From Desulfurococcales archaeon (GTDB taxonomy: Archaea > Thermoproteota > Thermoprotei_A > Sulfolobales > Acidilobaceae): a stretch of DNA of 64,000 nucleotides. Shown here piece after piece: positions 339 through 3,199 of this stretch. The notes under the pieces were generated by a model, which worked only from the letters and a program-made list of their open reading frames with translations, ran no database searches and had not been told where the DNA came from. The DNA is taken from contig WAOT01000038.1 in the NCBI GenBank assembly GCA_015521115.1, forward strand, positions 1 through 64,000, given 5' to 3'. Each line of letters begins with the position of its first letter. Position 1 is the first letter of the stretch. The position numbers and the translations under genes are program-made.

Positions 339-2000
339 ATGCCGTTGCCTAGGGCTGCTGGTAGGTTTGTTGAGGCTTGGGATGCTTTGAGCCAGGTTAG
401 GGATGGTAGTGTTGTTGTTGTGAGCGGGTTTAACTTGAGCTTGACGCCTGAGTACCTTATTCAGGGCCTTTATCAGTTGTATAGGGCTACTGGTCATCCG
501 AGGGATCTCTTCTTCATAGGTGATACTTTCCCGGGGAGCCCTGGTAGGGGGTTTGACTGGGTCGCTGAGAGGCTGTATAAGGAGGAGGGTGCCAGGCAGG
601 AGTTTATCCGTGGGATGTTGATGGCCTATTACGGTTGGAGCCGTTGGCTTCAGCAGATGATCGTGGAGGACATTATTGAGGCCTATACTTGGCCTATCTG
701 TGTCCTTGCTCACTGGCTGCGTGATGTTGGTGCTGGTAAGCCTGGGACTCTTAGCAAGGTCGGGCTCGGTACTTTTATCGACCCGAGGCAGGATGGTGGC
801 GCGCTGAATAGTCTCGCTAAGGAGAGGAGGACTGCCCGGGTCAGTGTTGTCGAGGTGAATGACGAAGAGTACCTCTTCTACAGTGCACCCCTACCCGAGG
901 TGGCGCTCATAAGGGGTAGCAGGGCCGACGACCACGGTAACATCGCGCTCTGCGAGGAGGGCATTATAGGGCCTGTACTGCAGATGGCGCAGGCGGTCAA
1001 GAGTAGGGGTAGGAAGGGGATGGTGATAGCCCAGATACTATACCCTGTGAGGAGTGGGAGCATTAACCCTAAGAACGTAGTAATCCCTGGCCCGCTAGTC
1101 GATTACATCGTTAAGGCGCCGGAAGATAAGCACTGGCAGAGTGCCACGATAAAGTATGACCCCAGGGTTAGCGGCCAGATCCTCGTACCCCTCGAGCACC
1201 TAGATGTGAGGGGGGTGCCCCTTGATGTGAGGAAGGTCATAGCGAGGAGAGTCCTCCTAGAGATGCTTAAGATAGCGATCGAGCAGGGGAGGGAGTACGT
1301 CATAGTTAACCTGGGAGTGGGGATCCCGAGCCTCGTGAGCAACATTGCAGCGGAGGAGGGGTTAAGCGAGGTTATAGTCTCAACAGTGGAGAGCGGCCCG
1401 TGGGGGGGCCTCGCCCTCCACGGTGCAGACTTCGGCGTCGCGATAAGTCCGAGGGCGATTATACCCCTCATAGACCAGTTCAGCATATATGAGGGCGGCA
1501 TAATTGATGCTGCAAGCCTAGGGTTCCTCCAAGTAGACAGGGAGGGGGAGGTTAACGCGAGCATCCTCCCCGGGAGGCTCACGGGTCCCGGGGGGTTCCC
1601 CTGTATAAGTACTGGAGCCCCACGCCTCTTCTTCGCGGGCCAGTTCACCGCCGGCAAGCGGGATATCAGGGTTGAGCCTGAGAAGGGTATCAGGATAGTC
1701 CAGGACGGGCCGATCAAGAAGTTCGTGAACAAGGTCTACAAGGTTCTCTACTGCCCATGTAAGGCGGAGGAGGAGGGCAGGGTTCACCTCTACATAACTG
1801 AGAGGGCAGTCTTCCGGTTGAGCGGTGGGGAGCTAGAGCTGATCGAGGTTGCCCCAGGAGTAGACCTTGAGAGGGACATCCTGGAGAAGATGGAGTTCAG
1901 GCCACGCATCAGCAAGAAGCTGGAGGAGATGCCCAAGATCCTCTACAGCCCGACGAGGATGGGAGTTGCGGAGTGGTTCTGGAGGGAGCTGAAGCGCTAG
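339..2000 (+). CDS. Family I CoA-transferase (acetate/propionate/3-oxoacid type)
   Basis: A cytoplasmic enzyme that moves CoA between carboxylic acids through a glutamyl-CoA thioester. About 553 residues make up the fused alpha and beta halves of family I transferases (propionate CoA-transferase, SCOT). The beta half has NLGVGIPSLVSN near residue 325, and TVESGPWGG near residue 350 supplies the expected catalytic Glu (about Glu351). An ATG at 339 is chosen because the ribosome site GGGTGG (328-333) precedes it; a GTG at 330 would lie inside that site. The stop codon shares CTAG with the convergent DUF763 gene. The first 450 or so bases use more T-ending codons than the rest, so the gene may be a mosaic. 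The substrate cannot be fixed from sequence; propionate, butyrate or branched acids are plausible given the acyl-CoA mutase later in the window. Confidence 0.85.
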   Translation: MPLPRAAGRFVEAWDALSQVRDGSVVVVSGFNLSLTPEYLIQGLYQLYRATGHPRDLFFIGDTFPGSPGRGFDWVAERLYKEEGARQEFIRGMLMAYYGWSRWLQQMIVEDIIEAYTWPICVLAHWLRDVGAGKPGTLSKVGLGTFIDPRQDGGALNSLAKERRTARVSVVEVNDEEYLFYSAPLPEVALIRGSRADDHGNIALCEEGIIGPVLQMAQAVKSRGRKGMVIAQILYPVRSGSINPKNVVIPGPLVDYIVKAPEDKHWQSATIKYDPRVSGQILVPLEHLDVRGVPLDVRKVIARRVLLEMLKIAIEQGREYVIVNLGVGIPSLVSNIAAEEGLSEVIVSTVESGPWGGLALHGADFGVAISPRAIIPLIDQFSIYEGGIIDAASLGFLQVDREGEVNASILPGRLTGPGGFPCISTGAPRLFFAGQFTAGKRDIRVEPEKGIRIVQDGPIKKFVNKVYKVLYCPCKAEEEGRVHLYITERAVFRLSGGELELIEVAPGVDLERDILEKMEFRPRISKKLEEMPKILYSPTRMGVAEWFWRELKR

Positions 2001-3163
2001 CCTTCAAGCCCTGCTAGACCGCGTGCGAGACGCCTAAGCCTCTCGAGGGCCTTCGCCCTCAACTTCTCCCCCACCCGGATCTCCTCGAGAGCCTCCCTTA
2101 GGAATGATACCGCCCTCATGGCTATCGTTGGCTGGAAGGGGTAGGGCACCCGATCCTTCCCTCCCACGGCGAAAGCGTATGCGAACGGGTTTAGTGGGAG
2201 AACCACAGGGTCACGGGAGCTCGTCGGCACGCCGTAGACTATGTCTGCTATTAGGGCTAGAGCCCTAACCACTTTGGGGCCGAGGCCCGGGGCGAGGGCT
2301 AGTTCCTCCTCGCTTGCCGGACTCCACCTCTCCAGGTCTTCGAGGGCCTTCCGGAGTTGTGGTGTCACGGGTATGGGGCGGTAGTATGGGGCTCTGGCTG
2401 GCTGCTTATGTGAAGGCTCTCTTTGTGGGGCGATGTAGTGGAGTATTGTGCGGGTGCCCCTGATCTGGGTATTGGCAGCCTCGATGTCTCTCACTATTTT
2501 CCTAGCTCCTTGCTGGACTATCTCTAAGTATACTTTTCTGGCCTCACGGCTCTCCCTTGCGGTGGCGTTTAGAATCGTACCACCCGGAGATCCAAGAACT
2601 GCACTGTGTGGTTCTTCTATCTCCTCTCTCGCCACGTGGTAGCGCCTTGCCATCCTCCTATCCCTATTCATACCCTGCTGTACGACCACAAGCCTACCTG
2701 TCTCCGTCACTATGACCGCGTGATGGTAGAGCTCGTAACCGTCTTGGAGGAAGCTCGAGTCGGCCCGGGCGGCTAGCTTGCTAGCCCTCTTAATCCTCTC
2801 AGCGCTTACCCCCAGCCTCTTCTCTGCCTCCAGTGCTTCATCCGGGACTCTCCTCATATGCGCCCCTTTACCGCCCAGGACTAGTATACCGAGCTCAGGC
2901 CTCCTCCACGTCACCTCCTTAAGCACTCCTGTAACAACAGTGGTGCTACCGCTGCTATCCTAGTCCATGCCCATCACGTTATTGAACGCCTGGAACCAGA
3001 ATGGGTCTGCCAGCATCTCCACAACAGAATCGGGCCCCCGCACCTCGACCATGTAAGCGATTATAGCATCCGCTAGCTCCATCATTATCCTGAGCATCCA
3101 CCGTGGGACGCGGCCTGAGTGTAATGGGAGGTCAGCTACCCCCGGCATGCCCGCTGATCCCAT
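1997..3163 (-). pseudogene. DUF763 family protein interrupted by an in-frame amber codon
   Basis: Two open stretches on this strand lie in the same frame and together give a full-length DUF763 protein of about 389 codons. The first (3163 to 2960) starts with MGSAGMPGVADLPLHSGRVP and ends in DPFWFQAFNNVMGMD; the second continues at once with DSSGSTTVVTGVLKEV and then LGGKGAHMRR. As I recall them, intact family members read approximately FDWHSSG-TT here, so the TAG at 2962-2960 replaces a Trp codon, a single TGG to TAG change. DUF763 has no settled function; its C-terminal part has a helix-hairpin-helix-like stretch (ALAPGLGPKVVRAL). A GTG at 2926 could start a shortened product. The gene may be a recent pseudogene, a read-through gene or a sequencing error. 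Its 3' end overlaps the CoA-transferase by four bases. Confidence 0.8.
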
Positions 3164-3199
3164 TTCAAAAAGTGTATATGACTGGAGGTGATTAATGGA

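Follow-up and report, generated by a model that had tools for sequence, protein, structure and literature searches.

Genuine readthrough of stop codons occurs in archaea for selenocysteine and pyrrolysine, and recoding has been proposed for many interrupted archaeal genes (PMC8211752). Among the latter, fucA1 of Saccharolobus solfataricus requires a −1 frameshift (PMC8211752). The gene considered here belongs to the DUF763 family (PF05559) and is interrupted by one in-frame TAG. It lies in a stretch of 64,000 nucleotides, analyzed as a whole and called the window below, on contig 38 of a 1.73-Mb draft genome (59 contigs, 99.92% complete, 2.81% contamination) from an archaeon of a hot environment, related to Thermodiscus/Acidilobaceae. 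The named relatives of the gene are found in MAGs labelled Thermodiscus sp., Acidilobaceae archaeon, and Thermoproteota archaeon, and are 55–57% identical to it. No conspecific genome was found among the 26 matching loci in the contig collection, the closest being 57% identical; this collection may leave out records of the genome itself. In the relatives examined the neighbors of the gene do not lie beside DUF763, and synteny gives no help.

The DUF763 coding frame occupies positions 2000..3148 of the minus strand, that is, 383 codons including the internal TAG. Its start, the ATG at 3148, was placed from the alignment of the relatives and from a TATA-like sequence (CATATACAC; 3172..3180, minus strand) situated approximately 28 nt upstream, a putative promoter element; the ATG at 3163 is an alternative, and the promoter appears intact. 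The in-frame TAG is codon 63 (2960..2962, minus strand). It is preceded by a piece of 62 codons (2963..3148, minus strand), which would be the expected N-terminal product if the TAG terminates, and followed on the same strand by an open frame of 320 codons plus a terminal stop (1997..2959); this regular end of the gene is also TAG (1997..1999). The first usable start downstream of the internal TAG is the GTG at 2926 (minus strand). A single PF05559 match reads through the TAG with 367 bits (cut-off 35.5) and covers model positions 1–319 of 319, which bears out an earlier reading made from the sequence alone, according to which an in-frame TAG splits a DUF763 gene. Since one continuous homologous protein crosses the TAG, two unrelated open reading frames lying side by side by chance are excluded. 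The gene contains no further stop or frameshift, again as the sequence-only reading had stated, and the 99.92%-complete assembly holds this one copy and no second. The conserved motifs LPLHxG, WFQAFNNVIGMDWxSSG, GGKG, QDGYxLYHH, QQG, ARRYH, and GGKD are all present; the exceptions are the Trp replaced by TAG and an I to M change within VIGMDW.

The codon aligned to the TAG is TGG in 24 of 24 same-order relatives, within WFQAFNNVIGMDWDSSGSTT, in agreement with the earlier proposal that a single TGG to TAG change struck a conserved Trp position. In a broader alignment of 47 sequences, bacterial ones among them, this Trp is at least 90% conserved, though not absolute; one Aenigmatarchaeota copy has Phe. 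No relative carries a stop at the same position; a stop noted in one matching locus (L101) is irrelevant, as it lies upstream of the homologous part. The motif around the interrupted site reads WFQAFNNVIGMDW-DSSGSTT in the order-level relatives. The nearest form is GMDW-DSSGSTT; that given in the sequence-only reading, FDW-x-SSG-TT, belongs to more distant relatives.

Signs of decay were sought in the gene as a whole and in the part beyond the TAG. The DUF763 HMM score of 367 bits is the highest in the genus, compared with 345.5, 338.9, and 321 bits in the three genus-mates having the gene. The terminal branch, at 0.454 for the whole protein and 0.478 for the post-stop part, is not unusually long, and the root-to-tip distance is among the shorter ones in the tree. 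Among the columns that do not vary across the other 24 sequences, two differ in this copy, the TAG itself and the conservative I to M replacement; intact relatives differ at 0–3. Branch lengths and invariant columns therefore give no indication of relaxed constraint or added lesions past the TAG, so that the gene, if a null allele, is a very young one. Either the TGG-to-TAG change took place extremely recently, or it leaves the protein unaffected, or it does not exist in the organism.

TAG functions as an ordinary stop in this genome. It terminates 26 of the 54 genes in the window, including 13 of the 26 that exceed 1 kb, and directly follows complete citrate synthase, ATP-synthase D, penicillin amidase, and APS kinase domains; reassignment of the codon was rejected given this use. 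Three long in-frame extensions past TAG were seen in the window (citrate synthase/RNA ligase, an unassigned protein/oxidoreductase, and AtpD/next gene), all of them merely neighboring genes. As the sequence-only reading had noted for the window, there is no sign of pyrrolysine use: the best match to pyrrolysyl-tRNA synthetase (PylS) in the genome reaches 21.6 bits where the cut-off requires 178, and pyrrolysine decoding was rejected. Generic matches to the PylS model turn up in most control genomes, and the cut-off is exceeded in one only. RNA folding around the site is unremarkable (z −1.5, 0.1, 0.7), and a recoding stem-loop was accordingly rejected.

The search for an amber-suppressor tRNA combined the Rfam tRNA model, ARAGORN with introns allowed, and a T-loop pattern. 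None of the approximately 43 tRNA loci carries a CUA anticodon; tRNA-Trp, some Thr, Met, and further isoacceptors escaped the search, introns being the probable reason. The single “stop” tRNA (tta) called by ARAGORN, on contig 18 (L048), was rejected, as its anticodon loop in the covariance alignment is CUCUUAA, corresponding to Lys CUU; it is a tRNA-Lys(CTT) whose variable region holds an intron (L048:1501-1612). A second, diverged tRNA-Lys-like copy is present on contig 37 (L110; 6180-6590). Three further loci, L067 at the end of contig 19, L106, and L112, hold tRNA 3′ portions lacking normal 5′ halves (Gly CCC, initiator-Met-like, and Ser GCT); these are possibly attachment-site remnants of integrated elements, or intron-rich or split tRNAs.

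The DUF763 family is dispensable. It is missing from 27 of 167 genomes of the order, and its absence from 13 of the 114 near-complete ones (completeness of 90% or more, contamination of 5% or less) shows that it can be lost; Kae1, a similarly long gene taken as an essential control, is present in all 114. Internal stops occur in two of 146 order-level DUF763 matches, those of the present genome and of genome G026, versus none among the Kae1 matches listed, a difference too small to be significant. In G026 (L019/L075; G026:C1:108988-110031) a TAA stands just before the helix-hairpin-helix-like region, at a site that is GAG (Glu) in its relatives G118 and G124. A phylum-wide sample yielded one more interrupted copy, in genome G170 (L074; G170:C43:10500-12700), with an internal TAG near the C-terminus (...GEPPS*KDPVKYS...) at a less conserved position, which is TGG (Trp) in its relative G082 (L076). 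TGG-to-TAG changes make up 4 of the 19 single-base transitions able to create a stop in the gene in its current state, and two independent cases thus need no special cause. No relative split at the same place was found among the genomes of the order.

The sequence-only reading had left three options, a very recent change, readthrough, or a sequence error, and this account survived all tests, with readthrough now ranked as unsupported and the other two both plausible. We consider a very recent TGG-to-TAG nonsense mutation the probable explanation. A single G-to-A transition (C-to-T on the plus strand) would have turned the conserved Trp codon 63 into an amber stop; with UAG read as stop in this archaeon, the ribosome would release a product of 62 residues. 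The gene would be an effectively null allele, either fixed in the sampled population or still segregating there, and too little time would yet have passed for the rest to decay. We infer that the base is real, that termination takes place at this codon, and that function is lost. A consensus error of base-calling or assembly in a metagenome-type draft, the living population having TGG and a working gene, accounts for the sequence equally well given the lack of decay, and we hold it as a serious if less probable alternative. One transition is enough for it, the gene shows every sign of continuing selection, and the assembly is fragmented, with 59 contigs and 2.81% contamination. The assembly around the gene, however, is clean, with long, tidily spaced open reading frames tiling the 64-kb window; moreover, when 70 comparable genes (approximately 21,400 residues) from the window and approximately 400 kb of other stretches were compared with a genus-mate, no genuine internal stop apart from that of DUF763 appeared, a second match with an internal stop lying at an alignment edge and not being counted as genuine. 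The cleanness of the assembly lowers the chance of a single-base consensus error but does not remove it.

Readthrough of the UAG, whether by a near-cognate tRNA, by an amber suppressor that escaped detection, or through a recoding signal at the site, would yield full-length DUF763 protein. It would fit the lack of relaxation in the downstream part, and the archaeal precedents for selenocysteine and pyrrolysine, the recoding proposed for many interrupted genes, and the gaps in the tRNA list leave some room for it. Against this stand the low PylS score, the lack of a CTA anticodon among the approximately 43 tRNA loci, the regular use of TAG as terminator, extending to the end of the DUF763 gene itself, the ordinary fold around the site, and the lack of a stop at this position in any relative; we regard it as unlikely. 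Still more doubtful is the specific version in which UAG is decoded in the absence of a pyrrolysine system, by an intron-hidden amber tRNA, a near-cognate tRNA, or A-to-I change in the mRNA, with the G170 gene as a second case of full-length synthesis. That the gene now specifies two polypeptides, the N-terminal 62 residues and a piece restarted downstream, is scarcely credible: the downstream frame is open and a GTG follows soon after the stop, but the break cuts the family's most conserved motif, which would be divided between the two products, and the same split is seen in no relative.

Among the papers searched for the function of DUF763, one mentions it incidentally and none describes it. 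At the sequence level no relative was found in the PDB, the only match being a weak helix-hairpin-helix-like one to ERCC1 (E 0.23). The predicted structure of the protein (window:2000-3148) is confident, with a mean pLDDT of 87, and no PDB fold matched the model at E below 0.9. If the nonsense mutation is real, it adds to the signs that hyperthermophilic archaea can lose this widespread, uncharacterized family; an error would be of relevance to annotation alone. Only the unlikely readthrough reading would be of broad relevance, because we know of no readthrough with a canonical amino acid in this archaeal group. The finding is an ordinary one: the nonsense change is either very recent or an error, the gene that it strikes is conserved yet dispensable, and none of the results points to a novel decoding of the genetic code. 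The DUF763 family itself is a more open question than its TAG.

Set beside the known systems, the locus resembles UAG readthrough with pyrrolysine, e.g., in the methyltransferases of Methanosarcina, in that an archaeal gene contains an in-frame UAG beyond which the frame stays open. It differs in that no PylS exceeds the cut-off and the gene does not encode a methylamine methyltransferase; the position of the UAG is Trp in the relatives, and genes here routinely end in TAG. With the recoded or interrupted genes of Saccharolobus solfataricus such as fucA1 it shares a setting in related thermophilic archaea and the conservation of both gene parts, whereas the DUF763 case is a point change, with neither a frameshift nor a conserved signal. 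Like the prokaryotic pseudogenes and null alleles that arise by nonsense mutation in dispensable genes, it consists of one in-frame stop in an otherwise conserved single-copy gene, from a family that several near-complete relatives lack; it differs from them in showing no other decay, which must mean an extremely recent event or an error.
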